A DNA stretch of 64,000 bases from Meghimatium bilineatum. Taxonomy: Eukaryota > Mollusca > Gastropoda > Stylommatophora > Philomycidae. The stretch is from contig CM067315.1 of NCBI GenBank assembly GCA_034231615.1, positions 29,242,133 to 29,306,132 on the forward strand, read 5' to 3'. The translations under genes were made by a program, and so were the position numbers. Shown here piece after piece: positions 6,201 to 56,500 of this stretch; within the stretch, counting starts at the first letter, position 1, and every line of letters starts with the position of its first letter. The notes beneath the pieces were generated by a model that did no database searches, was not told where the DNA came from, and was given only the letters and a program-made list of their open reading frames with translations.

Positions 6201-7046
6201 GTGCCTGAAACGAGAACAAGAATAGCAACACATTTGCCTTCCAATTATGCTGTGAGAGGCGACTAAGGAGGTTTTTGAGTTGACTTTTCTAATCCCTATA
6301 TGATCAAAATTACCAGAAATCCACGCTGAAGTCTGATGTCACACTTAAAATATGCAGATACCACAGCTAAGCTGTAAAAGATGGCACAAAGCACTCAGTT
6401 CTCTTAACTACATCCTGCCAGTCTGCAGCAGTTTGAGAACGAACAAAGTGGATATTCAGACATAAACAAACTTTACAAAAATATTTTTTGTATGCATTTA
6501 CCATTGCATTTACCATTTTTAAAAAAAGGCAGCTTCCATGATTATATCCATATAGCCCAGCTCAAATATTTTTTCTTCTGCGTTCGTTCTCAAACTCCTG
6601 CAGATTAGCAGGATGTAGTCTGGAGAACGGAATGCGTTGTGTCATGGTTTACAGCATTGCTGCCATATCTGCACCTTTCGGCCTGACAAATCCGACCCAG
6701 CATGGCTTTGGGTCACTGACCCTATATGGGATGGGGCAGCCAACTCCATCCCATAACCTCCTTAGTCACCCTTTACGACATGCATGGAAGGTAAACAGTC
6801 TTGCTATTCTTTGCTCCCCTTTCGGGCCCGGCAACACACGGGCGAAATATTATTTAATCTTTTGATTGATAATCTTAAATAGATCTTTCTTGCTTGTACA
6901 TGATCTCACATTATGTCATGTTTTTGCTCTTGAAATGTCACATTTCTTTTAAGTTGTTATGATAGCAATTTTATGTTTTCTTCTCAGATTCTTGGCGAGA
7001 AGCAACACCAAAAAGCAAGAAGAAAAAATCCAGACGAGACAACTAG
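1..7046 (+). CDS. Lysine-rich protein, 3' four exons, 5' partial; possibly metadherin/LYRIC-like
   Basis: Exons are 1-240, 2581-2692, 4028-4132 and 6988-7046 (TAG). Joined phases (0, 1, 1) and GT/AG sites agree, giving 171 residues. The first exon has a 13-residue repeat (EKVAKKELSTATS type) and the basic run SPKKKKIKVR. The second is charged and Lys-rich. The third is Pro/Gln-rich and ends PVGITFDEIG. The last encodes DSWREATPKSKKKKSRRDN. A lone Trp followed by PK and a KKKK-RR tail is how vertebrate metadherin (MTDH/LYRIC, an ER and nuclear scaffold) ends, in SWESPK...KKKK.RRET. The rest is too low in complexity to decide, and another Lys-rich ER or nuclear scaffold is possible. No enzymatic motif is visible. 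Confidence 0.75.
411..484 (+). repeat. 13-bp minisatellite
   Basis: The unit AGTACAGTTATAT is repeated about 5-6 times in the first intron of the Lys-rich gene. A 25-bp triplet, GCGCTATAAAG.ATTTCACTG, follows at 700-780. Confidence 0.85.
500..655 (+). mobile_element. Long-tailed SINE subfamily copy
   Basis: It reads from a CATTGGCACAAATAAAA head through GGAAATCTAGTAG and CTACAAGAGAGATCCAGTGG to GAATGTACGCTGAAG. Other copies of the subfamily are at 18040-18190, 54895-55025, 55930-56145, 63350-63475 and, reversed, about 58980-59120. Confidence 0.6.
1880..2300 (+). mobile_element. LINE C-terminal remnants
   Basis: The plus strand encodes RWIQDIKNRLNMTLTEAERF followed by TQDRAG at about 1905-2000. 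A second piece, RQQIKWFAHISRLPSHN, lies at about 2200-2240. Both are LINE C-terminal signatures. They are out of order, so two elements are involved. Confidence 0.6.
2581..2692 (+). CDS. Internal exon of the Lys-rich gene
   Basis: Acceptor atattctag and donor gtgatt bound 112 nt in phase 0, encoding QEETLEKATDIQIRLTEKSD, then VAAKKSNEIKTTDVSSK. A copy of the main SINE family begins just downstream at about 2.72 kb. Confidence 0.75.
2725..3135 (-). mobile_element. Two tandem, degraded main-SINE copies
   Basis: The segments 2725-2870 and 2920-3135 both carry the family landmarks on the minus strand: TGACACACC..., CTGCTAATCTACAGG and GAACTACATCCTGC. A third partial copy lies at about 3440-3620. 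All are in an intron of the Lys-rich gene. Confidence 0.6.
3243..3432 (+). mobile_element. tRNA-derived SINE with RTE/BovB-like 3' tail
   Basis: The head has a B-box-like GGGTTCAAATTCC. The body reads AATGGCAAACTACTGAAC...TTAGAAAATCACCACAG, close to the RTE/BovB 3'-end motif AATGGCAAACCACTCC...AAGAAAATC. It ends in GATGGCTACATCCTGAATGG. Copies recur at 4650-4855, 35320-35485 and 52665-52865, all in plus orientation. Confidence 0.6.
4028..4132 (+). CDS. Internal exon of the Lys-rich gene
   Basis: Acceptor tcaattcag and donor gtgaga bound 105 nt, in phase 1 and out phase 1. It encodes TSLEPSHAPSSEQQQDSPVA, then AGQPPVGITFDEIG. Its PPVGITFDEIG end is less degenerate than the rest and would be the best probe for homologues. 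Confidence 0.75.
4310..4580 (+). mobile_element. LINE RNase H-type C-terminus with CxC...H...
   Basis: The plus strand encodes TKFKIGNTAMCTCGQAAQSV, then KHILQESSEHETLRQTYWPD and KLYGTLYELQKTVSFI, the zinc-binding CxCG...H tail of RNase H-bearing LINEs. Related tails lie at 11540-12045, 34740-35035 and 36860-37140, all minus. Confidence 0.7.
4650..4855 (+). mobile_element. tRNA-derived SINE with RTE-like tail, second copy
   Basis: It has the B box GGTTCGAATCTC and the body GTTCAGAAAGCAATGACAAA followed by GGTTGATGGCTATATCCTG. This copy keeps the best match to a Pol III B box (GGTTCGANTC). Confidence 0.65.
4869..5260 (-). mobile_element. LINE C-terminus with Cys-ending IGL motif
   Basis: An open 128-residue minus frame encodes MTHFTIDTDQIHGRIMHK, EERQELLTVPPECGREFQ and AHIGLICYSRAHRR. 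The C.REF.A.IGL..H.R.H end is typical of LINE ORF2 C-termini. A related plus-strand piece at 15945-16235 keeps CDRQFQARIGLIT in broken frames. Confidence 0.6.
5336..5781 (+). other. Unrecognised decayed coding-like stretch
   Basis: Overlapping short plus frames, e.g. 5581-5781 with FLMEFQVFSSENHKKDVYKH then FDNIAVEIGCKNIT, look protein-like but are broken by stops and shifts. It may be a transposon or retrocopy remnant in the last intron of the Lys-rich gene. No family was recognised. Confidence 0.25.
6230..6480 (+). mobile_element. Main SINE-like family, plus orientation
   Basis: The head GTGAGAGGCGACTAAGGAGG and the core AACTACATCCTGCCAG are present, with tail GTTTGAGAACGAACAAAG. The opposite-orientation copy at 6565 follows within 100 bp, so the pair could fold as an inverted repeat in the primary transcript. 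Confidence 0.65.
6565..6850 (-). mobile_element. Main SINE-like family, near full-length copy
   Basis: Read on the minus strand, the element starts near the TGTTGCCGGGCCCGAAAGGG head and runs through GTCGTAAAGGGTGACTAAGG, the conserved GACTACATCCTGC core, and a GAGTTTGAGAACGAACGCAG tail ending in (GAA)n. It is about 285 bp. The family is the most abundant in the window, with about 30 copies. No protein-coding capacity is visible. SINE status is inferred from length, copy number and tail. Confidence 0.75.
6988..7046 (+). CDS. Terminal exon of the Lys-rich gene, basic C-terminus
   Basis: Acceptor tttcttctcag leads into DSWREATPKSKKKKSRRDN and a TAG stop at 7044-7046. The KSKKKKSRR cluster could serve as a nuclear localisation signal. 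The downstream stretch to about 7560 is probably 3' UTR, with an ATTAAA at 7553-7558 as the best polyadenylation candidate. Confidence 0.75.
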
Positions 7047-29159: not shown

Positions 29160-30376
29160 TCTTTCAAGACATAACACAATACTGGCTACCCATGTAACTA
29201 TTGAACTTCAAGACATTGCACATTACTGGCCACCCATGTAACTATTGAACTTCAAGACATAGCATGTTACTGGCCACCCATGTAACTATTGAACTTCAAG
29301 ACATAGTATGTTACTGGCCACCCATGTAACTATTGAACTTCAAGACATTGCACATTACTGGCCACCCATGTAACTATTGAACTTCAAGACATAGTATGTT
29401 ACTGGCCACCCATGTAACTATTGAACTTCAAGACATAGTATGTTACTGGCCACCCATGTAACTATTGAACTTCAAGACATAACATGTTACTGGCCACCCA
29501 TGTAACTATTGAACTTCAAGACATAGCATGTTACTGGCCACCCATGTAACTATTGAACTTCAAGACATAACACAATACTGGCCACCCATGTAACTATTGA
29601 ACTTCAAGACATTGCACATTACTGGCCACCCATGTAACTATTGAACTTCAAGACATTGCACATTACTGGCCACCCATGTAACTATTGAACTTCAAGACAT
29701 AGCATGTTACTGGCCACCCATGTAACTATTGAACTTCAAGACATAGCATGTTACTGGCCACCCATGTAACTATTGAACTTCAAGACAACACATTACTGGC
29801 CACCAATGTAACTATTGAACTTCAAGACATTGCACATTACTGGCCACCCATGTAACTATTGAACTTCAAGACATAGCATGTTACTGGCCACCCATGTAAC
29901 TATTGAACTTCAAGACAACACATTACTGGCCACCCATGTAACTATTGAACTTCAAGACATAGCATGTTACTGGCCACCCATGTAACTATTGAACTTCAAG
30001 ACATTGCACATTACTGGCCACCCATGTAACTATTGAACTTCAAGACATTGCACATTACTGGCCACCCATGTAACTATTGAACTTCAAGACATTGCACATT
30101 ACTGGCCACCCATGTAACTATTGAACTTCAAGACATAGCATGTTACTGGCCACCAATGTAACTATTGAACTTCAAGACAGTATGTTACTGGCCACCCATG
30201 TAACTATTGAACTTCAAGACATAGCATGTTACTGGCCACCCATGTAACTATTGAACTTCAAGACATAGCATGTTACTGGCCACCCATGTAACTATTGAAC
30301 TTCAAGACTATGTTACTGGCCACCCGTGTAACTATTGAACTTCAAGACATAGCATGTTACTGGCCACTCATGTAAC
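29160..30376 (+). repeat. 44-bp minisatellite, about 27 copies, two alternating unit types
   Basis: Every unit has TACTGGCCACCCATGTAACT then ATTGAACTTCAAGACA. The remaining 8 bp is TTGCACAT, TAGCATGT or TAACACAA, with short forms ACACAT. Type order is patchy, with type runs of 1 to 3. Confidence 0.92.
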
Positions 30377-31194: not shown

Positions 31195-32345
31195 TTTCAG
31201 AAGACTGATGTATCTGGCCATTGTGCAAATAAAACAGCGACACAGCTCATTTCCATTCTCTGGACTGCATGCTGCTAGAACTATAATAAGAACATTGTCC
31301 TGCTACAAGAGAGATCAAGTGGGAGTTTGAGAATTTCCAGATACAAGAGAGATCAAGCGGGAGTTTGAGAATGTCCAGCTACAAGAGAGATCAAGCGGGA
31401 GTTTGAGAATTTCCTGCTACAAGAGAGATCAAGTGGGAGTTTGAGAATTTCCAGCTACAAGAGAGATCAAGCGGGAGTTTGAGAATGTCCAGCTACAAGA
31501 GAGATCAAGCGGGAGTTTGAGAATGTCCAGCTACAAGAGAGATCAAGTGGGAGTTTGAGAATGTCCAGCTACAAGAGAGATCAAGCGGGAGTTTGAGAAT
31601 GTCCAGCTACAAGAGAGATCAAGTGGGAGTTTGAGAATGTCCAGCTACAAGAGAGATCAAGCGGGAGTTTGAGAATGTCCAGTTACAAGAGAGATCAAGC
31701 GGGAGTTTGAGAATGTCCAGCTACAAGAGAGATCAAGCGGGAGTTTGAGAATGTCCAGCTACAAGAGAGATCAAGCGGGAGTTTGAGAATGTCCAGTTAC
31801 AAGAGAGATCAAGTGGGAGTTTGAGAATGTCCAGCTACAAGAGAGATCAAGCGGGAGTTTGAGAATGTCCAGTTACAAGAGAGATCAAGCGGGAGTTTGA
31901 GAATGTCCAGCTACAAGAGAGATCAAGCGGGAGTTTGAGAATGTCCAGCTACAAGAGAGATCAAGCGGGAGTTTGAGAATGTCCAGCTACAAGAGAGATC
32001 AAGCGGGAGTTTGAGAATGTCCAGCTACAAGAGAGATCAAGCGGGAGTTTGAGAATGTCCAGTTACAAGAGAGATCAAGCGGGAGTTTGAGAATGTCCAG
32101 CTACAAGAGAGATCAAGCGGGAGTTTGAGAATGTCCAGCTACAAGAGAGATCAAGCGGGAGTTTGAGAATGTCCAGCTACAAGAGAGATCAAGCGGGAGT
32201 TTGAGAATGTCCAGCTACAAGAGAGATCAAGCGGGAGTTTGAGAATGTCCAGTTACAAGAGAGATCAAGCGGGAGTTTGAGAATGTCCAGCTACAAGAGA
32301 GATCAAGCGGGAGTTTGAGAATAAACACTGAAGAAGCAGAAATAA
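31195..32345 (+). mobile_element. Long-tailed SINE copy expanded internally into a 38-bp minisatellite
   Basis: The SINE head (31195-31301) reads CTCTGGACTGCATGCTGC as in other copies. The normal continuation CTACAAGAGAGATC...GAGAAT is repeated about 27 times, and the SINE tail AAACACTGAAGAAGCAG resumes after 32318. The repeat unit is exactly the SINE segment plus GTCCAG. Confidence 0.85.
31302..32318 (+). repeat. 38-bp minisatellite, about 27 copies
   Basis: The unit starts CTACAAGAGAGATCAAGCGG and ends GAGTTTGAGAATGTCCAG. Units differ mainly at AAGYGGG and CAGYTAC, in runs that suggest stepwise local duplication. Confidence 0.9.
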
Positions 32346-32449
32346 TTGATGAAGAGTTTATTATTTCTGTCATTTTACAGAGAACTCACAAGTTGACAGC
32401 TTGATCAATCACTATGCAACAGCCAGCCTCTAGCAGAGTTGACAGCTAG

Positions 32450-33120
32450 ATCAATCACTATGCAACAGCCAGCCTCGAGCAGATGATGTGTATGTACAGT
32501 AAGACTCTTGTGGAAGTCCTACAGACTATCATCTGTACAATTATTTTGTGAACCCCTCTGAGTCTCCCATGTAGCAACCTCATCTCTGAGGGGGCCTGGA
32601 CGTCTAGTTCAGTGTGTGAAGAATAGGGCCACCGTCTTCTTTCCAGGGATATTCTAGGAACTGCTACGGAAATTTTGAGATAAACTGACAACCTGTGAAA
32701 AATTCATTATCACTGCATGTCTTGTCTGAATTTCTTACTTTTGTCTTTTGATGGTTCACATGGATGATGGATAGATCATTGCACTTTTATAAATTTTTGG
32801 GAGACTCCTAGGTGGTGGAAAATGTTGGGCATGCTATCACTGCAGATGGGTCAACATATCTGACAGATGTATATGCTGCACCATAGTAGGACGCGATTAT
32901 CCTGTGACACTAGTGCACTGGGAATGCCTCTATTTTGTGATTAAGCATGCATCCATAAATTCCCTCCCCTCCCCCTTAACACAATCATGCCTTTGAGACA
33001 GCAATCCTAACACATTTAAGCTTCACTTCAATCATTCAAATGAGGAGATCCTATGCTTTTGTCAGAAAAGCTATGGACTATTAAGAGCTAACTGCTCCAA
33101 ACTAAAGGGATTACTTCATT
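32450..33120. mobile_element. Unclassified interspersed repeat, copy 2
   Basis: It aligns in order with 25560-26145, with about 75% identity by eye and a longer left part (32450-32590). It ends ACTAAAGGGATTACTTCATTA. Confidence 0.55.
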
Positions 33121-38568: not shown

Positions 38569-41500
38569 CTGTCAACAGAGAAATATTTCATAGGACTCAT
38601 CACATGATTGAATACTTTTTCTATTTTTTCTGCATTCATTCTCAAACTTCTGCATATTAGCAGGATGTAGTCCAGAGAATGGAATATGCTGTATTATGGT
38701 TTACAGATTGTTAGCGATATCTGCATCTTATGGCCAGATACATCTGACTTCAGCGTGGCTGCAGATTATTTTGACACTCTGTGGCATGGATAGCCAACAC
38801 CACCACCAAAAACTTCCTTAGTTACTTCTTACAATATGCATGGCATGAAGCAGTGTTATTATTCATTGCTCCAATTTCAGGACCCGCAAGACACAATCAA
38901 TTATTGAACTCAAATATTATGTCCTACAACATTCTAATTCTCAAGTTCTACAACATTCTAATTCTTGTCTTGCAAAATTATAATTCTTATGTCTTACAAC
39001 ATTCTAATTCTTATGTCTTACAATATTCTAATTATGTCTTACAAAATTCTAATTCTTATATCTTTGTTTGTGATTAGGAACAAGTGTCACAGCACTGGGG
39101 GCATTCCCATATATGCTCTGTTTGCCGTTCCGTCAACCATCTACAAGTGTATAAGCTCAGTGTCCCAGTCAGTTGCTGAACACGCATTCTTCTGATCTTT
39201 CCGGAGAGGGAGCACTTTCTCCCATCGTCTCTAGTCACTCCCATTTCTACCATTATCTGAATATGTACACTGTCTTGTTCGACTTCCTCCTCGTCTTCTC
39301 ATAGGGTATCCATGACTGCTCTAATCAATTCAATCCTGTCTCTTCTTATCTCGGTGCCGTTCTCCAAGGCTTTACCAGACAACACATCAGCACTTTCGTT
39401 TCCCCTGACCCCAGCATGACCTGGACAGTAGATCTATGTAATGCTCTGCGTGTTGTTGAGAAGAGTGACCCATTCAGTTCAGACCCTTTTCTATCTTGTG
39501 CAGCATACTTTGAGAGTCCGATAGAATCAGAGTCTGTTGGTGGTTGTGTCGCCAGCAAAATGAGAGCTGCTGTCACCGCTTCTATTTCCATTCTCATACT
39601 CGATGTTGTAGGGGGTACTCAGCTGACCATCTCAGCTAATTTTGGTAGGCCACGAAACCTCAACCATACCTGTTTGTTTCTTGTGTTACTGAGCCGTCTG
39701 TTTAAATTATCATAACGTGTGGCTTCAAGTTATGTTATGTTATGTTCCTCCAGGGCCATAGGCGGCGCATAGGGCAGAAACCATAGCCTTCCATTTCTGT
39801 CTTTGTGTTGCCAGGTCTTTCAATTGTTGCGTGTTGTTTAGGTACATTGATATGCCTTCTCTATTAATGGTTCTTCGTAGAGTTTCTCTAGTCTCCCTCT
39901 TCTTCTTACTCCAGGTGGCACCCAATATAGTGACTGCTGGGGAATTCTTAGGCTGTTCATTCTGAGAACATGGCCGATGTAAGTCCAACGCCTTTGTCTA
40001 ATGAAGGAAGATATATAGGTTTGTTTGCTTTCCTCTCTTATAGTAGTGTTAGATTTAAAGTCACTCCACTTAACATTCAGAATGGTACGTAGGCATTTGT
40101 TTTCAAAGGAGTCGAGTCTTTTATCTGTGGCTTTTGTGGCGTTCCAACTTTCGCACCCATATGATAGAATAGGGATGATGTTGGAGTTAAACAACTTGAG
40201 TTTTGTGGTGTTTCTTAGTGTGTTTGATGTCCAGATGTTGCGTAGTTTATTGAAAGCACCTGCTGCAAGGGCAATACGATGTAAAATTTCTTTTGATGAG
40301 TCTCCATCCAATGCTAGAATGGTGCCTAAATATGTAAAATTGTTGACTTTTAATAATGGTTCATTTTGAATTTCTATGTTGTCGTTGGATTTCGTAAAAT
40401 CTAGTATATGAGTTTTTGATGTGTTGATTTTCAACCCTATCTGATTTGAGTAGTGTTGGAGATTGTCAAGCTTAGATTGAGCATCTGTGTGGTTTGCGCT
40501 CAAAAGGGCCAGGTCATCTGCGTAGTCAAGATCTTCGAGAACGGTATTATTAATCCATTTTATTCCTGTCAGCTCATTTTCAGTGCTCTTTCTCATGACC
40601 CAATCAATATTTCAATATATACTGTGGCTTCAAGTGCTGCTTTATAAGTTCTTGGATCATTCCTTCTGTTGTTGGCAGCCCAGTTGCGGCACTCTCTTCC
40701 CATCTGTATCACAACTGTTGTCAATAACTTTCTCCCTTTGCCAAATATCACCCATTCACAGCCTCTTCCCACTTCCTCCAGTTTACAAACTCTGAGTAGG
40801 GTATCTTCTGCTTCTGCCATCCAGGACCTTCATCTCTTGATACATCTTCCTTTTGTGTTGTCAAGAGATTGGTGTAAGAGGTGATGATCATTATTGGCGA
40901 ACAATGTCTTAATATATTCTAATTCTCATGTCTTACATTATTAGCGAACAATGTCTTAATATGTTCTAATTCTCATGTCTTACATTATTGGTGAACAATG
41001 TCTTAATATATTCTAATTCTCATGTCTTACATTATTATATTTCTCATGTATTGCAATATTCTAATTCCTATCTTCTACAATCACCCATTTACTCTCATTT
41101 GATCACAAAAATAATAGTAAAACTATGACCTTCCGTGCATGTTGTAGCAGTCAACTAAAGATTATACAGAAAGTCAAAATTATATAATAATATTGGATGT
41201 CAGGCCAGAAGTAGAAGCTATCGCAGTCAATCTGTAAATAATTATGTACCACATTCTATTATCCAAACTACATACTGCTAATTAACAGATCTTTGAGAAT
41301 GAAAGTAGAACAAAAGGACATTCTGTCACAATTTTCATATGAGAAGTTATGACACAAAGGGAATGAAAGTTGTGATGGTATGAGAATGTAAGAAGTGAAA
41401 GCATGAGAATGTAAGCTGTGACATGAGAATGTAAGCTGTGACATGAGAATGTAAGCTGTGACATGAGAATGTAAGCTGTGACATGAGAATGTAAGCTGTG

Positions 41501-44500
41501 ACATGAGAATGTAAGCTGTGACAGCATGAGAATATAAGCTGTGACGATATGAGAATGTGAGATGTGACAGTATGAGAATGTAAGAAGTGACATTATGAGA
41601 TGTGACAGTATGAGAATGTAAGAAGTGACATTATGAGATGTGACAGTATGAGAATGTAAGAAGTGACATTATGAGAATGTAAGCTGTGACAATATGAGAA
41701 TTTAAGTTGTGACAGTATGAGAATGTAAGAAGTGACATTATGAGATGTGACAGTGTGAGAATGTAAGAAGTGACATTATGAGATGTGACAGTGTGAGAAT
41801 GTAAGAAGTGACATTATGAGATGTGACAGAATGAGAATATAAGCTGTGACAATATGAGAATTTAAGCTGTGACAGTATGAGAATGTAAGAAGTGACATTA
41901 TGAGATGTGACAGAATGAGAATATAAGCTGTGACAATATGAGAATTTAAGCTGTGACAGTGTGAGAATGTAAGAAGTGACAGTATGAGAATTTAAACTGT
42001 CACAATATGAGAATTTAAGCTGTGACAGCATGAGAATTTAAACTGTGACAGTATGGGAATGTAAGGGTATGAGAACAAAAGCAGTAACAAAAAATAAGAA
42101 GTTATAACACCAATGATAATGTATTATTCTCAATGATTACTAATATAACTAATAAATAGTAAACATACCAAATGTAAAATACTTTCAATGTAAAAATAAC
42201 ACACACAAAACAAAAGAACAAGGACTTTTTTCACATAACAGTTCAATAAGATCCTTTATCAAGAAACAGCCATGAACCAGAAATAAACACAAACTCAATA
42301 AATACAATGGAATGGTCTTACTTCTGCATCCAATTGCATTTTAAGAGAAAAGGCGCAATTATATTTAGCTATAAGCAATAATGGTTCTCGATTGAATTTT
42401 ACATGCAAGTGTACCATGGATAGACAAAAATCAAACGCTACAAGAAAATGTGTTATGAGAACCAAACCTGATTAAGTTAATGTTTCTCGTCAATGATGCT
42501 AACTGTACAGACATATACAAACATATAAAAAATCGTACATGTGTAGGAGCACACAAAGATGTATACATATAATATGGAGATGTATACGTGTATGTGCATA
42601 TATATAGAGGTTGATGACCTCTGTTGTTAACAGAACTACTGATTGTGGAAGATTTTGTCAACAAATTAATTCTCTCTCTGAGTAGAATTTTGAAATTCCA
42701 TTAGTAAATGTTGGGTCATAGGTACGTAAGATTTTATGTTTTAAAAAGGGAGGGGGGTGGGATATCATGTATAATTCCCTCTTTTTTATGAGAAATGTAA
42801 TGCCCCTTTTTTTAAAAATCTTTAATGGTGTGGGGGTGAGGGGTTAATCTACCCTTTGGCTAAATTTATAGTATTAAAAATCAAAAAGTTATGTTCTGAT
42901 TGGTGGGGGAATGTGTTTTGAACACACCAACCAACACACCCCCCCCCCCCCACCACAGACATGAGTTTATGTCGATCAATGCCGCTGCATCTGTTTTTTT
43001 CACAACTGAGTTACTTGTGTGTGGTTCAACTTATTTAAAAATTTGTTCAGCAGATGTATCCTGCTCTAAATGGATAATTCTGATTATCAATCTCAGTTCT
43101 TTCCCAAGCTAAATTAGTTTACTATTTCTGTGTAATGAGCTTACCTTGGCTTGCTCTTGATGACCTCACCAGTTGCTCTATTCAACTGTGTTAATAATCG
43201 TTTGATTACAGCTGGTTCATTGATAGATTGATAATGAAAGACTACCTAAGGAGAAGGAGAAAAGTCAAGAAATTAGAAAATGATTTCAACCTTCCAATAA
43301 TCTCAAAGCAGTAATAATCTCAAAATAATATAATAAAAAAAGCATCAAGAATTTATTGGTATAGAAAAAAATTATAAGGCAGCAAATAGGATTTGAACCA
43401 GCCTTTCAGATAGCCCATATTCGCCTTGCAGCTTGTCAATAAATTTTCCATATTCTACCTTTAAAAGGTGCCATTTTAGCCAAGACTTCCCAACATGTTT
43501 TTCTCATGCTACTATGAATATAGACTGATCTGTCGACACACAGACAACATCAACACATACACTCTACACGTATGTAAATTTCTTGATCAACCGGTCCGAA
43601 TTCATAGTGATTTGAGAGAGAGAAATTGAAGTCTTGACTAAAATTGCATCTTTTTTTAGGGATGCTATTGGTCAAATATTTAAAAACTTGTTGACCTCAA
43701 TTGCAAGGCAAATAGGCAAACTATTAACGGACCTGGTTCAAATCCCATTTGCCGCAAGTAATCTCAGAAGTGTTTTAAAAACCAGACAGAATAAAAGAGA
43801 GAAAACTGAAAGGTATGGCAAAAAATAGACTAAGAGAAATACAGAAAATGTAAGGTACAGAGTAGGCCAAAAGAAATAGAGAAAACTGTAAGGCATATAA
43901 AAGATGAACAGCAAATGACAAATTATTTTCTATATTCAGATTGAATAGAAAACATACTTGGGCCAAAAGCAAACCATGTGAAGATCTCCTTGGCGTAGTA
44001 TTTAAGTTGCTCACTTTGTACTCAAGAGGTCATGCTTATGCTGTCTGGTTTATAAAGTGCATTTTTTCAGAGATCCCTGGGGACTATCGCTTGAAGATAC
44101 AGAGTTCCATGCTATTAGTGGTAATCGGTAGATGGTGTGCCACTTCATTGAAAGTGATGGAGTACATACCTGAGCACAATGAAGCCAATTCTCTATGCCT
44201 TTTGAGCATGAAACCATGGGCCACTGATTAAGACACAACCAAACAATCAGCCAGCCAGATAATCATCACGCCAACCAATAAACCAACCAGATGACCAACA
44301 AACAAACCAGTCAGCCAGATGATCAACAAACCAACCAGCCAGCCAGATGACCAACAAACTAACCAGCAAGCCAGATGACCAACAAACCAAATGACCAGAT
44401 GACATCAAACCAGCCAGCCAACTAACAAATCAACCAGGACCAACAAGCCAACCAGCCAGACAGATGACCATCAAACTGGCCAGCCAACCAACCAAAAAGA

Positions 44501-47500: not shown

Positions 47501-50500
47501 AGATAAGACTTACTGGAAACCCTTTAGTAATTGGTACATCAATATTAAAGATGGCAATCTTCGCCTTGAACTTTGTGACACTTTTGGCAGGAAACAATGG
47601 GTCACATAGGCAGCTTCCTGAGGAAAGAAAGTGTACATAAAAACGGGATGTGATTTGCGAAATAACTTCATTTTGAAATTTCTTGCTTTACATTTTAAGC
47701 ATGAGGGTTGTTATGTGTATGTGCCTATAAAAGTTGGGGGAGGGGGAAAGAAAGCATCTACTGTTTTAATGTTTTAATTTAATCACCATTGTCACAGTCT
47801 TGTCTTGTCAGTCATTAGGGCAATCTTGACATAATTACATAATTTTTATAATCCCTCGCCAACTTTGATGATTCCAGACCAGTCCCTGGTAAGTAGCAAA
47901 AGAACAATCCTATCAACTCATTTATTCTTCTTCTTCTTCTACGTTCGTTCTCAAACTCCTGCAGATTAGCAGGATGTAGTTCGGAGAACGGAATGCGTTG
48001 TGTCATGGTTTACAGCATTGCTGCGATATCTGCGCCTTTTGCCTGATACACCCGACTTCAGCATGGTTTTGGGTCACTGACCCTATATGGGATGGGACAG
48101 CCAAATCCATCCCATAACCTCCTAAGTCACCTTTTACAACATGCGTGGAAGGTAAACAGTGTTGCTATTCTTTGTTCCCCTTTTGGGCCCCGGCAACATA
48201 CGGACGACCAATTTATGTCTTACCATTTTTGTCTGCCCCAGTTTAAATTACTTGGCACTGTTCCTTTCATAATGGTTTTTGCAAGACCTGGAGTTCTGGT
48301 AATACATATATAATCACTATCAGGTGCACTGTTGCTGATCTGTATAGGCGATGATGGATTTTCACAGCTCTATTACCAGTATCTTGTATCAAGATCCTTG
48401 TTATGCCTCCATGTCAGACGAGTTAATATTTCCTAACGTTGTCGCCCTCGATCTCTCTTGCCGTACAGTATTTTTGTCTTCTAACTTCCCGACTGGTTTA
48501 CAGGGGAGCTGCATTATTTGCGCTGTCCAGCACAGCACAACCGACTTCGGTATGACTAAAACCTTATGACGTTTATCATTTTTCTATATGACAGCATGTC
48601 CAGAATTTTAATTCTACTTAACCAAAAAGATCGTGGTTTAAAAGACTTGAATACCAGAACTGTGACCTCCACTATTTTTTATGTTTTAAAGCTATGATAT
48701 AACCAAATGGATGGACCTTTCAAGTTGAAAGGAGCTACCTCACCATAAGAGATACATTTCATTCAGTTAATTAATTTTACTTACAAATCAACAAACACAA
48801 ATTTATCAATTCTGGCTTTAGTTACCAATGTTGACATTAGCCATGTCTGCCCCGCTCAGAGTGAGATTGATATGGTCTCCTGCAAATGCAACATTTGCCA
48901 GCTGATCATCAATAAACAGATCTGGTGGAAACATTCAGAATAAAAAGTTGATCATCAATAAACAGATCTGGTGGAAATATTAAGAATAAAAATGGAAAGC
49001 AGTGTTGTCAAGTTAGGACAGCTGTACTTTTGATGATTTCATATAACAATAAAAGTTTTTAGTGGAGCGCTTCGTACATCTAGAATGCCAGCCTCAGATT
49101 CCTGAGGTCTCGGGTTCAATCCACATTTGGGAGAAAGATTTTTATCATTCGGAGGTGCAATAAAAAATTCTTCCTGTACACGTCGCGGCGACAGCTTTGG
49201 CAAAAGCAGCCTTTATTCCCACAGCCGTAACAACCTCCCTTCACTTCTTAACAGGAAAACACGCAGTAATGAAAGAATAAAATCTTTGGGACAAGGGGAA
49301 TAAGGACTACCACCACATTCATAGTTTACAATCATTTCTTTATGACTGTAAAGCATGAACAGTATATGCTTACTTATTCAATCCCTGGAGTTGCAAACTT
49401 TCACTCATCTTCCATGTGTTAGGTGGTGATAGATGCAGGTCTTCTTCAGCTGTGTTGTATCTGTATAAAGGATGTTAGTAATGGAGAGGTTTGGTGGTAA
49501 CAGCTGTTTGACACCCAAAACAGTCCATACAGAAGAAATTAGGTCTAAGACCTAGGGACATGAATTAGGTCTAAGACCTAGGGACACGAAGGGTGGTAAT
49601 GGAATAGTCTTTCTACATGAGGAATAGCTCGCTGGCTGTGTAGTGCCTAGTCGGAGAAAAGACACACAATGGGTGACCTAAGCAAACTATCAGCTCATCT
49701 CATGACATGTACACCTTCTGAGTGGAAGGCTCCTGCAATAGACATTGCACTAAGCCGAAAGTTTAAGCCTCCTGAGTATGAAAGAAAGCTCAGAGAAACC
49801 TCCCCACTGCACATTGGAAATAAGAGCTAATCATTCCTGGGGTTTGCAAAGAAGGAGCCATAAACTAATGTAGAATAGAAATAGAATTTTAAAAACTCCC
49901 AATTTTAGTCTATTTATGATTTGTTTAAATGTTAATATTTTCCTGTCATTGAAAACACTTTTAGCCATTCCTATTCTCCTCTTAGCTTCTGTTTCATATC
50001 TACCATCATTTGTGATTACACTGCCAAGATATTGGTAATGATCTACTTGTTTCAACCTATATACTTACTTTTAATGTTGGCTGTAATGCCAGCAGGCATT
50101 ATAAGAACCTTATCCCCAGGTTGTACATAGCCTGAACCCACACGGCCAGCCACATTAAAACCTGTTCCCAGTCCTTTAAACACATCAGAAACATTTAAAC
50201 GAAAAGGTTTGTCTATTGGTCTTGAAGGAGGTTTGAGGTTGTCTGAAGGAAAACAAAACAATATTTTTTTTTTAAACTCAAAATATTGACTAAAAATGTA
50301 TGCTGATCGTAAATAATGTATATTTAATTGTTTATACAGTTCACAAGTAGAAAGTCTGTGAGTCTTACCTGTGGAGGGAACAACACAACAAACCATCATG
50401 TATAAGGTCTGTGAGTCATACCAGTGGAGGGAGTAAAAAAACATTAATACTGCATTGAAAAGTATTCCTCCCCATTACTCCTGTAGTTTACTTTCAGGAG

Positions 50501-53500
50501 GAAATAATTTATCGATAAGCACACACAAAAAACACACTCATTTTCTACACCATTTTTTACCAGAAATAGACACTACAAGCAGTAGAATGGGTACCAGATG
50601 GAAAAATGAAAAAAAGAAAACCAAGAGAAACTCTTCATAGAATAATCATCAAAAATGTATGACTATAGGTCTTAACAACATGCAAGAATTACACACAGTA
50701 GTATCACACCGCTCAAAATGGAGAGCACTGGTTTCTGCCCAATGCACCATATTCATTGCCGAAGGAACACAGATGGACATATAGGTAAAATCATGAAATA
50801 ATTTATGTTCGGAGAATAATAGAAATGAGAGCGATCATAGGAGAGAGAAGAAAGTGTCCACAACTAATGAATGAATGGGACATTAAGTGTCTCTTAGATG
50901 ATGACTTGAGAACTTAAGGGAATGTCTCCAGTGCCATGACATTGGTTTTTAAACAATAAAAAATAGCTAATTAAGTAGAAACTAATAAGAACAAATTTAG
51001 AATGACTCAAATAGAACAAGGCATACAAGATTTTATGAAGCTGTTTTTCTTATGAAATGTTTTCACTAATTCGGATCACATGCCAAAAATTCAACTTAGA
51101 ATTATTGTGATTAGAGGGATGCAAAAGGTATCACATTGCTCTCTGCGGACCCAGGGTTCGCAGATAACCAAGATCCCAAAAGTAGCTCCTCGTGGTGCAC
51201 CTTGGCTAAAACTTTTGGGGATCATGTCCGTGAATGTGGAGGTAGCATATGGAAAGAGATTTGCCTGCAAAAAGACAGGCAAAATCTCTGACAACTCTGC
51301 ACCAACACATGCAGAAGCACTGTCCATACACAGTGAAGCGAGTCAGTTTGGCAGGGGCATTAGAGGGGTGGCCAATGCAGATGTTACGAAGTGCGAAGAT
51401 GTTATGAGAAATATAAAGAATTAGTGTATCAGTCACCATAAGAATAACAAAATGAGTACACACTGAGAGGGAAGTACAGCGCTAGATGGCAGCATCACGT
51501 GCAAAGAGAACGGAAAAAGTTTCAAGGAAATCGGAACTAAAGTATTGTTTGCTCGAGACAAGCTTCTAGTTATCAGTGATCCCAGCCCAGACCCAACTCT
51601 ACTGCCGCATCTTTTCTATATCGGAATCATGCTTGCGGAGAGAAAAAGTTAAGCACCCAATAGGCACAGCTGTCCAAGGTGACAAACACTGTTCAGCTCT
51701 AGAACAAAATGCTAGTCCCTGACGCTCCTAAATATGTGTATTGACTCGGACTTGGACGAGTGGTTCACAACGTTGGTGAACAAGACTTCGGCTAAGAGGG
51801 CACGGGCACAATACATCTAATTACACGAGACAAGTTCACTGGCGGCGGAACATCTTGTGCAGGATAGATGTGAGGGACAAGCCATCTCGTCGTGGAGTCA
51901 GTACACATTCGCTGCCTGGCTACAGACACAGGCTAGGGTAGCCCACCCAAAATGTCAAGGCATGCCGAAATCGGCTGTGATGGGCCTACAAGGCACATAA
52001 CGGTGGCACAATGTAACTACACTCCTGGTGGAAATCACACGAATATCAGTTCTGATTGCAATGGAGCAAACGCAAAACAAATAAACATTGTGATTGGACA
52101 AAATACTTCAGTAATTTTACAATCTCTTTTGGTGAAGACTTTCTTAACAACTCTCCCATCATCTTTTAGGAAGTCGAGTTATAATATGGAAACTATTTAT
52201 TCATCTTTTCAAAAGAAGTGCCAAAGACTAAGAGTTAAGCCAAGACACCCAGCATGTGTATACTCTAGTCATTATAAATCTATCTATCTATCAATAAACC
52301 CGCAATCTGATAGAGTCGTAGAGGTACCACATTGGATGCTTCAACAAACAGAGTCCTCCAGCGATTTATTATATCTTCAGCGATACAGATGAATGAAAAA
52401 TCTTGTACTGTCCATTCCTTGATGTCGTCTGTCCATGTCTTTATTTTCCCTCCTCTGCTTCTTCCCTTCGACGGTTCCCTGCAGTATTATTTTTGACAAG
52501 GAGTCATGTCTGCATACTTGTCCAAACCATGTTAAATTTTCTTTGTTTCACTATTGAAAGAAATGGTTTTTGTACACCAGCATACTATTTTATTTCTTAT
52601 GTAAAATTTGTCATATGCTCTCTATAGGAAATTAGTAGAAATCGTCTGTAATTTGTCATTATAAATATGGACCAGTAGATCAAGACACTCTGGCTATGCA
52701 AGGTGAGGCACCGGGTTCATATCTTGACGCAGGCAAATGTGCATCCAGACCATTCTGAAAGCAATGGCAAACTACTGAACATATTTACAATGCCTAGAAA
52801 ATTAATAACGTCACAAAAATGATGCTGGGACTGATGGCTACATCCTGAATAGGATATGCTACTAACTTTATTTTTGACACAGACAGTAGCACACATATTG
52901 TACATGTATGCACATTTCTCGAGGATCATAGCACACATATTGTACATGTATGCACATTTCTCGAGGATCGTAGCACACATATTGTACATGTATGCACATT
53001 TCTCGAGGATCGTAGCACACATATTGTACATGTATGTACATTTCTCGAGGATCGTAGCACACATATTGTACATGTATGCACATTTCTCGAGGATCGTAGC
53101 ACACATATTGTACATGTATGCACATTTCTTAGGATCGTAGCACACATATTGTACATGTATGCACATTTCTCGAGGATCGTTGCACACATATTGTACATGT
53201 ATGCACATTTCTCGAGGATCGTAGTACACATATTGTACATGTATGCACATTTCTCGAGGATCGTAGCACACATATTGTACATGTATGCACATTTCTCGAG
53301 GATCGTAGCACACATATTGTACATGTATGCACATTTCTCTAGGATCGTAGCACACATATTGTACATGTATGCACATTTCTCGAGGATCGTAGCACACATA
53401 TTGTACATGTATGCACATTTCTCGAGGATCGTAGCACACATATTGTACATGTATGCACATTTCTCGAGGATCGTAGCACACATATTGTACATGTATGCAC

Positions 53501-56500
53501 ATTTCTCAAGGATCCCAAACACTTAACGAGCACAGACAAATTGTAATAACTCACAATCACAAAGACCACAAGCAAATTAGATTAATTAGTCTAAAATTTA
53601 CCAATCTGTTGAACAAGAGTAATTGCTGGTGTGTACCAGGAGACAAGCTTAGGTTCTGTGGGTTGTTGAGTCAAGTTCTCGCCACTCAAGCCACTACAGG
53701 GCACAAAATAGAAATCTGATTCCTTGAACCCTGCTTGTCTGGTTAGGAACTGACCAATCTTTTTCACAATCAGCTGGTATCTGTCCTCGCTCCAGTCTAC
53801 TGTATCCATCTTGTTAACTGCAACAATAACTTGACCAACACCTATAAGAAAGCAAGATTTAATATATCTTAGTGGAGAGATAACAGGCACTTAATGGATT
53901 CTGTAAAAAGACCTAGAAAATCTGGATTTTCCAGTCTTCTTCTTCTGCATTTGTTCTGAAACTCCTGCAGATCAGCAGGCTGTAGTGCAGAGAATGCATT
54001 GTCATGGTTTACAGCTAAGCTGTGATATCTGCGTCTTTCGACCTGTCACACATAACTTCAACATGGCTTGTGTCACTTTGACCCTATATGAGATGAGACA
54101 AGAATAATCATTCATCTCCTTCCAGCAATTTGTGTTTTCATGCATATTTCAAAGTGATCACGCCCAGTACCGTCCTCTTCTCATCATTTGTTAAGCTGTG
54201 TTTTTTCATGAAGACATTTTGATAGAAACATCAACTTTGTGTATGTTTTCTCTTGTTCTTCCAGTATTTCACAAAACTTTGTTAATAATAATAATTGAAG
54301 TGCATCCTGCACAAGACACTGTTATTCAAATATTGATGAATTTTTTGGCATCTCTAATGCATCCAATCGTATCTCCAGTACAACGTGGATGGTCAGTGTT
54401 CAAACCACAAAACTTTATTAGTGTCTTCAATTTTTGTCTTTTGGATCATAGTTTTGTTACAGATTTACAAATTATTTACTTCAAAATATGACAACGAGCT
54501 TGATTTTAAACCCACAAAATCATGAAAACAAGACAAATGTCTTAATCACTTTGTTAAGTTGTCCCATCATGTGACTTCACCATTCTCGGCAGCTGACCAC
54601 ACATCTAGATACTGATGTTACTGCATGCAGCGTGATATTTTTTCTTTGATGGCATCCTCTTTTCCTCTCATTCTTGCCTTCAGGAAGTGGACATCTGTCA
54701 CCCAATCAATATTACTATAGTTAACTGCAAAACGTCACATAATTTTTTACCACGATTGGCATTGAGATGAGATTGGTGACCAGAGTGCAATTCTTGGGGC
54801 AATACTTATAAACATATTGCAACAAACAGCTAGGCTCCTAGCGATATTCCTACAAATGTTCACCATTCAGCAGAATTGGGAAAACACTGAATGTATTAGT
54901 CATAACTGTTGAAGTTGGACTATGACGCAAATAAAAATGTGACACAACGCATCTCCATTTTCTAGACTATATCCTACTGGAAATCTAGAAAGACCATTAT
55001 CCTGTTATAAGAGAGATCCAGCTTAAAAAATACGAAACGTCTCCCTGCCACCGGATTTTTTTTTGAAAATTTGCGTTATTGATGGAAACTGTTTTGAAAA
55101 TGTGATAATTTTTTGGTTGTTAGAGATATTTAAATTATATTTGCACATATAAATAAAGAATTGAATTATGCATATATTGGTGTAATTTATGTACATGTGT
55201 GTGTGATACCAGACGTATGAGAAAGTGGTAAAGACGTTTTTCACAAAAAACATATATTTTATAACAAATAAAGAGGAAATAAATAAGTAACAAAAATAAC
55301 TTACCTTACATATCGAATTCCTTGGCAACACTGTAAACTAAATCACGCAAATCTGTTGTATTTATGTTCTTTCACTGCAAAATTATCAAAATATAGCTGG
55401 GGGAACTGTATAAAACTTGTAGATTTGCAGTAAAATAGTTCTTTGAGCTTAGGCCTAGAATTATTTTTTCTGCCACTTCAAAATATTCGATATCAAACGT
55501 ACAAGTCCCCAAACCAACACGGCATTCTGTAAAACTAAATAACCTAATAATTCATGATTCAAGCCACGATTCAATGTTATTTTATTTGAAATACGATGAA
55601 ATAAAAGTCTATAAAACCGATCCACCATCATGGCATCGTACCGGTGTGCAGATGTGGTCAGATTAATTGCTCTTAAACTTTTACGAATAGCTAGCCATTC
55701 TCAAAAACGATCATGTCGGAAGTGGTGGATGTACCGGCTTCGATTGCGCATGTCCCCAGCTAAGTGCACAGACTGTGGTACGTGTAAATCTCACGATATT
55801 CTCGTTAGGTGGGACGGGCCGGCAACGGCGCGTGCCGCCATTTTGTTTCTCGGCGGCCGGGGTTGATATAGGCTTGGTGAAGGTTAAAGTGACCCAACCT
55901 GCCAAACTGAAGTCATATTTGTTGGGCCACAAGGCACAGATATTGCAGCTAAGATGTAAACTACAAAACAAATTCTGTTCTCTTGACTGTGTCAAAGACT
56001 GATGTGTCAGACCATTGGTGTAAATAAAATGGGGACATAACTCATGTCCATTCTCTGGACTACATCCTGTTGGAAATCCAGTAGAACGATTCTCCTAATA
56101 CAAGAGAGAACCAGCGGGAGTTAGAGAATAAATGCTCAAGAAGAAATTCTCTGCACATTGGTTATTGATTATGAACCAATGTTACTGCACTCTGTGCAAC
56201 CCCATAGTCTGTCAAACACATTTAACGGATGTCGAAGTATATGAATGTTGATAATTCCATCCTGCAAGCCATAAGGAACCTGAGAATTGTCACAAAAGAA
56301 AACAAGCAATATATTGAAGAAAATAATATAATAAAGATATGCAAAATATATGATAAACTTGACATACCTAAAGATCTGGCAAGAAGAGCATGTTCTCTGG
56401 TCTGCCCTCCTGCATCAAAGCCAGTCTCAAATTCACCTTTAGTTGCATTGATTACAAGAATAGCCACATCTGCCTGAGAAGCACCTGGGAAGTAAATGAA

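Follow-up and report, generated by a model that had tools for sequence, protein, structure and literature searches.

Squamate reptiles carry SINE-derived satellites (sSats), described as arrays in which part of a SINE is repeated in tandem, the unit being shorter than the element and the array being flanked by the SINE ends; they run from few to very many units, their loci number up to thousands, a single unit dominating in snakes, and their longer arrays are more homogeneous (PMC10702118). The satellite PcH-sat of the limpet Patella caerulea includes a large segment of Nin-SINE (PMC11121367). Human minisatellites derived from transposable elements contain parts of SINEs in tandem, some regions being hotspots, and for 6,817 of 7,276 such human repeats neither a flanking direct repeat nor an incomplete end is reported to account for the start (PMC3389668); Alu-derived minisatellites are attributed to Jurka and Gentles 2006, as cited in the same paper. 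The beginnings of minisatellites are largely unexplained where direct repeats do not flank them (PMC3389668). In the family described here a single segment is found in hundreds of array copies and about ten thousand single copies, with diagnostic bases in the hosts, and this makes birth, growth and transfer of arrays separable.

The locus that we describe lies in a 64-kb window (the whole stretch of DNA that was analysed), and the following features were assigned to it:

31199..31295, forward strand: degraded head of the host SINE-like element (local alignment to consensus positions 5-102, 84% identity)
31284..31305, forward strand: relic inverted repeat TAGTAGGAC-CATT-GTCCTGCTA with a degraded left arm (consensus RNA fold, sequence)
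31296..32321, forward strand: minisatellite, 27 x 38 bp, unit TGTCCAGCTACAAGAGAGATCAAGCGGGAGTTTGAGAA (TRF, unit table, wraparound alignment)
31866..32245, forward strand: two consecutive 5-unit blocks with the same variant order (unit table, lag-5 test)
32322..32340, forward strand: host tail with degraded GAA repeats at its end (score 14 in local alignment to the tail consensus of 21 letters)

The 38-bp minisatellite comprises 27 full units at 97% matches (TRF: period 38, 27.0 copies, score 1942 at 31296-32322; wraparound alignment: n=27.0), and its unit comes from the 3' part of the element consensus, as the initial annotation had proposed in reading the array as about 27 copies of the 3' part of a SINE. 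Its placing of the SINE head on the left and the normal tail on the right also held, as the head touches unit 1 with a gap of 0 (nhmmer match at 31199-31293, E=9.4e-15), the repeat unit starts inside the CATT loop of the inverted repeat, and the tail picks up again at 32322 (TAAACACTGAAGAAGCAG...). No target-site duplication of this copy was found (best match score 7, below 9). The window holds 13 head-like matches, of which the copy at 31199 is the sole one followed by an array among the tail alignments listed; ARAGORN found no tRNA in the window, and Rfam no family at gathering score. Three short-tailed related copies, at 6606-6696, 38658-38755 and 47967-48062, have the middle of the unit missing, two of them reading TCCTGCTA-AT-CTGCAGGAG, and the arms that remain could form a small hairpin. 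Directly after the host element stands a 46-bp tandem pair (32391-32483) with three weak relatives (77-80%), which are consecutive at C17:16050904-16051204.

Cut at 38 bp, the units fall into eight haplotypes and 16 of the 27 are identical. Each of the two blocks consists of a CAGTTAC unit and then four canonical units, the same variant series running through units 16-20 and 21-25. Whole-unit identity at lag 5 is 0.64, shuffles giving 0.36 (p=0.0014 for the highest z among lags 1-13), and unit changes grow sparser in the 3' direction (rho -0.44, p=0.02). The 5-unit period marks late block duplications at the 3' side of the array, and the proposal that the unit variants trace the order of duplication is supported in so far as they record these blocks. 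All 27 units carry A at unit position 22 (GATCAAG), which also occurs in several single copies, from a search that favoured A at this position. The consensus letter T at unit position 6 is left only in units 1 and 4, so the A at that position probably arose and spread within this array. The pattern at the locus fits growth in place.

TRF arrays make up 15.3% of the window (9,818 bp), among them 44 bp x 27.8 at 29163-30376, 42 bp x 15 at 52886-53514 and 23 bp x 30 at 41361-42065, and this genome may favour minisatellite growth in general. As products of the fetched elements these other arrays were rejected: of the 20 other TRF rows a single one, the 44-bp array at 29163, matches any fetched locus, and that locus is L001, the window's own flank. 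Elsewhere in the genome, a COX1-like stretch with five in-frame TGA (C2:121989805-121990428) is perhaps a nuclear copy of mitochondrial DNA.

The element itself is SINE-like and about 155 bp long. We built its consensus from copies other than the window's (34 out of 36, L006 and L008 not fitting the unit pattern), and it carries the segment once, with a (GAA)n end, and not several units, a state that the initial annotation had named as speaking against its reading. Target-site matches scoring 9 or more flank 20 of 35 single copies vs. 1.5% of mismatched flanks, and 9 of 46 array hosts vs. 0.3%; the family thus has the target-site duplications (in its single copies) and the (GAA)n 3' tail of a SINE. 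A LINE 3' end, as a partner LINE would share with the SINE, was considered as the source of odd prefixes (GCGATTTTCC and others) and rejected for the four candidate loci sampled (L124-L127), which are further SINE copies in which the SINE head precedes the tail. The copies in L124 and L125 are embedded in a larger repeat. L124:957-1286 holds a 110-residue open stretch which we take to resemble the cysteine-rich C terminus of a LINE protein.

Across the 1.61 Gb genome (32 contigs), the 38-bp joint has 1,924 matches at up to three mismatches, and exact joints number 4,227 when lengths between 3 and 13 letters are admitted; the controls gave 0 in both cases, and the reversed pattern used for the 38-bp joint thereby rules out a chance origin of the joint pattern. 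We estimate about 440 array-ending elements vs. at least 9,422 single-unit copies, i.e. arrays in roughly one in twenty element copies, an approximate figure as the mismatch limits differ between searches. The 40-bp joint accounts for 353 array-end matches, and all 16 that were fetched are arrays, seven of them dimers by eye (L128, L132, L137-L140 and L142). For the 41-bp joint, 29 of 40 rows are array ends by prefix, the other 11 being single-copy-like or ambiguous. For the 38-bp joint, the prefix is present in 46 of the 100 listed matches (of 204), and 44 of these 46 fetched loci are arrays (L092 and L103 are not; L110, counted among the 44, has 1.89 units), which extrapolates to about 60 of the 38-bp ends over all 204 matches. 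The claim that other SINE copies carry the segment once therefore stands for most of the family and fails for the hundreds that carry arrays, and the reading of the window's array as a singular event has to be given up, as the same unit and a few joints recur in hundreds of other copies.

Parsing of 60 loci gave 56 with at least 1.9 units, four of which extend past the fetched stretch. The head precedes the array in 50 of the 52 loci with flank, mostly directly and at most 16 bases off among the rows listed, and the tail follows it in 48 of the 54 with enough sequence. L043 (21 units) has neither head nor tail, L099 has no head, and L050:1484-1536 consists of 1.4 units within an AT-rich simple repeat, again without head or tail, as if a fragment of an array had been inserted there. 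Arrays at loci without SINE flanks, the sign that had been set against growth from inside a SINE, thus appear, if weakly: both flanks are absent in two loci and the head in a third. Unit number is continuous across arrays, from 2 to about 35. A 39-bp-unit array of about 93 units by coordinates lies at C3:9409195-9412816, with a head at the L123 edge and a tail at the L122 edge.

Together with 25 short loci, the parsed arrays make 81 that could be classed by joint: 42 have 38-bp joints only, 19 have 40-bp only, 5 have 41-bp only and 15 are mixed. These three lengths recur, and no others were found among the matches listed, all of which are on C1. The 38-bp joint reads GAGAATGTCC, the 40-bp joint GAGAATG-TGTCC and the 41-bp joint GAGAA-CATTGTCC, with a variant GAGAATG-TTGTCC. 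Direct switches between TGTGTCC and CATTGTCC occur within L144, L149, L151 and L152, the joint order being 40, 40, 41, 41, 41, 41 in both L144 and L149, and such switches between joint types are expected if arrays recombine. L136 contains the intermediate joints CATTG, TGTTG, TATG and TGTG, and L117 contains two TTG joints; joint length can therefore change inside an array by mutation, without exchange.

The breakpoints lie in or beside predicted hairpins. With RNA parameters, the 3' region of the consensus is predicted to form two of them (z=-2.79), first TAGTAGGAC-CATT-GTCCTGCTA with a 9-bp stem, then CAGCG...CGCTG. Units of 40 and 41 bp begin in the CATT loop or at its edge, the 38-bp joint fits the same point if a 2-bp TG overlap is allowed, and all units end at GAGAA or GAGAATG, inside the second hairpin. 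By inspection the 40- and 41-bp joints have no microhomology, and an isolated 40-bp unit folds no better than shuffles (z=-0.66). The position of the breakpoints suggests that the predicted hairpins may take part in the duplication.

The units are younger in appearance than their hosts. Outside CpG sites, 19 incidental single copies diverge by 0.115 in the head and 0.102 in the unit, a baseline unit/head ratio of 0.89 (CI 0.60-1.27). Among the 59 array loci that have a head, medians are 0.107 for head divergence and 0.029 for unit divergence within the array, and the latter is below twice the head value in 58 of the 59. The search for these loci used similarity to the last unit and the joint and so lowers unit divergence, and since the search favours clean last units the age argument rests on the first unit and on the window, whose array was not found by similarity. 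First units of 18 small arrays carry 15 changes unshared with the last unit, where 46 are expected if they were as old as the head (P about 1e-7); the 18 include L123, which is misplaced there as one edge of the 39-bp-unit array on C3, and leaving it out lowers the expectation to about 42 (calculated by hand) without changing the conclusion. At the window the units differ by 2%, the host head by 12% outside CpG sites. Because the units differ less than the host heads, most duplications probably came after insertion, provided that the units were not reset by gene conversion among themselves. When copies with equally clean tails are compared, the age gap does not show: head divergence is 0.107 in 51 array hosts vs. 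0.092 in 29 single copies, which is not a significant difference (p=0.10). Units also carry marks of their own locus: mean unit distance is 0.031 within a locus vs. 0.060 between loci, non-CpG changes are fixed in 33 of 68 array consensuses, a derived change is common to first and last unit in 7 of 21 small arrays, which is what local birth would predict, and host-private changes are common to the units of L138 (GATGCAG), L139 (GAGCC) and L147 (GAGTATG).

The base that follows the 40-bp breakpoint is variable among copies, being G (CATGG vs. CATTG) in 7 of 37 singles, 2 of 22 incidental copies and 13 of 59 array hosts, and a 40- or 41-bp duplication born locally in a G host must carry G. It does so in none of the six G hosts that have a head and a 40/41 joint, where the joint carries T. 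Five of the six read ATGGTCC, and L105 reads AATGATCC, not CATGGTCC; L073 and L105 mix 38 and 40 joints, which leaves L120, L133, L140 and L145 as the cleanest four. The 41-bp version of the comparison comprises one locus, L145, and a genome count of two matches. Genome-wide, exact G joints number one at 40 bp and two at 41 bp, and exact T arrays of the same strings at least five and at least three on the first 85 Mb of C1 alone. A 40-bp joint could also arise from a local 38-bp joint by gain of TG, an alternative source of T joints in G hosts; G hosts should then concentrate among arrays without 40/41 joints, which they do not: they make up 7 of 39 of these vs. 6 of 20 with such joints. The heads of array hosts do not cluster apart from single copies (nearest-head test, p=0.79; 55 hosts, 55 single copies), nor do they cluster by joint class (p=0.32), and the idea of a composite subfamily was dropped on the former. 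Divergence does not fall toward the array (0.128 at head positions 75-102 vs. about 0.10 elsewhere), so there is no sign of flank co-conversion, which was likewise set aside.

The explanation that we place first, with confidence short of even, is that few founding duplications were followed by growth in place and by exchange between old element copies. The segment from the CATT-hairpin loop to the second predicted hairpin near the 3' end would have been duplicated into 38-, 40- or 41-bp units only a few times, at hairpin-prone breakpoints; arrays would then have lengthened by block duplication, through slippage or unequal exchange, and may have reached other copies that already existed, by way of ectopic recombination or of circles derived from arrays. 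The window's array would be one such locus, grown to 27 units, its last steps being the 5-unit block duplications at the 3' side. Some recurring joints mismatch their host copy, and for this reason the arrays may have spread between copies; direct transfer between loci was not observed, and the shared changes in 7 of 21 small arrays, the flat divergence of the heads and the intermediate joints in L136 and L117 count against spread. Those same intermediates, together with breakpoints clustered in or beside predicted hairpin loops, the private changes of L138, L139 and L147, the lower unit distance within loci and the changes fixed in 33 of 68 consensuses, are what one would see if the inter-hairpin segment were simply a duplication hotspot, each array having its own origin without exchange between loci. 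We regard such independent local births as a close rival, a serious possibility that we rank second: they leave the absence of the host's own base at the 40/41 joint in all six G hosts to be explained, with G hosts equally frequent elsewhere, as well as the one and two exact G joints in the genome and the direct switches of joint type in L144, L149, L151 and L152. The initial annotation's growth from inside a local copy thus remains likely at the window, where the 38-bp joint makes the diagnostic base uninformative, and becomes doubtful for the 40- and 41-bp joints.

A source element with at least two units could instead have been copied, its array arriving with the insertion. The same joints at many loci, the target-site matches around array hosts and the dimers among the fetched 40-bp-joint loci agree with such composite retroposition, which we nevertheless judge improbable, given that the heads of array hosts are unclustered, that unit numbers are continuous from 2 to 35, and that first units are too similar for the age of their heads, a comparison that gene conversion in dimers could weaken. 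Template jumping by the reverse transcriptase at insertion, for which RNA structure at the 3' end would be the guide, would suit a unit that lies in the 3' end and has a predicted hairpin at each breakpoint; it predicts units as old as the head, which those observed are not (the window's 2% against 12%), and it seems to us more improbable still. An assembly artefact or collapsed repeats hardly come into question: no sign in their favour was found, and arrays of 2-35 units with individual variants stand at many loci of a 32-contig genome. The founding-and-exchange explanation can be pushed to an infectious minisatellite, its units born a few times at hairpin loops and entering old SINE copies as landing pads without retroposition until about one copy in twenty was colonised, and in this strong form we consider it rather unlikely, though well ahead of composite retroposition. 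If transfer is true, the colonisation of a transposon family by a tandem repeat need not depend on the transposon's own mobility.

The arrays described here have the features of a SINE-derived satellite or minisatellite, i.e. a unit taken from a dispersed element, flanks of that element and several loci with varying unit number, and compare most directly with the sSats: in both, part of a SINE stands in tandem between SINE ends at many loci. Units of the sSats are about 70-290 nt and derive from Squam families, those of the present arrays are 38-41 bp and derive from another element, and the portions of the sSats account consulted contain neither a comparison of joints with their hosts nor hairpin-bounded breakpoints (PMC10702118). 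PcH-sat is pericentromeric on five chromosome pairs, in contrast to the short arrays in dispersed copies found here (PMC11121367). The human case is alike in that parts of SINEs are repeated in tandem, and differs in that the majority of the 6,817 repeats have two units, against regular arrays here that reach about 35 units and in which three joint lengths recur (PMC3389668). SINE-derived satellites are therefore a known kind and, set against the literature outside subscription journals, the new part is the recurrence of joints that are bounded by predicted hairpins and foreign to their hosts.
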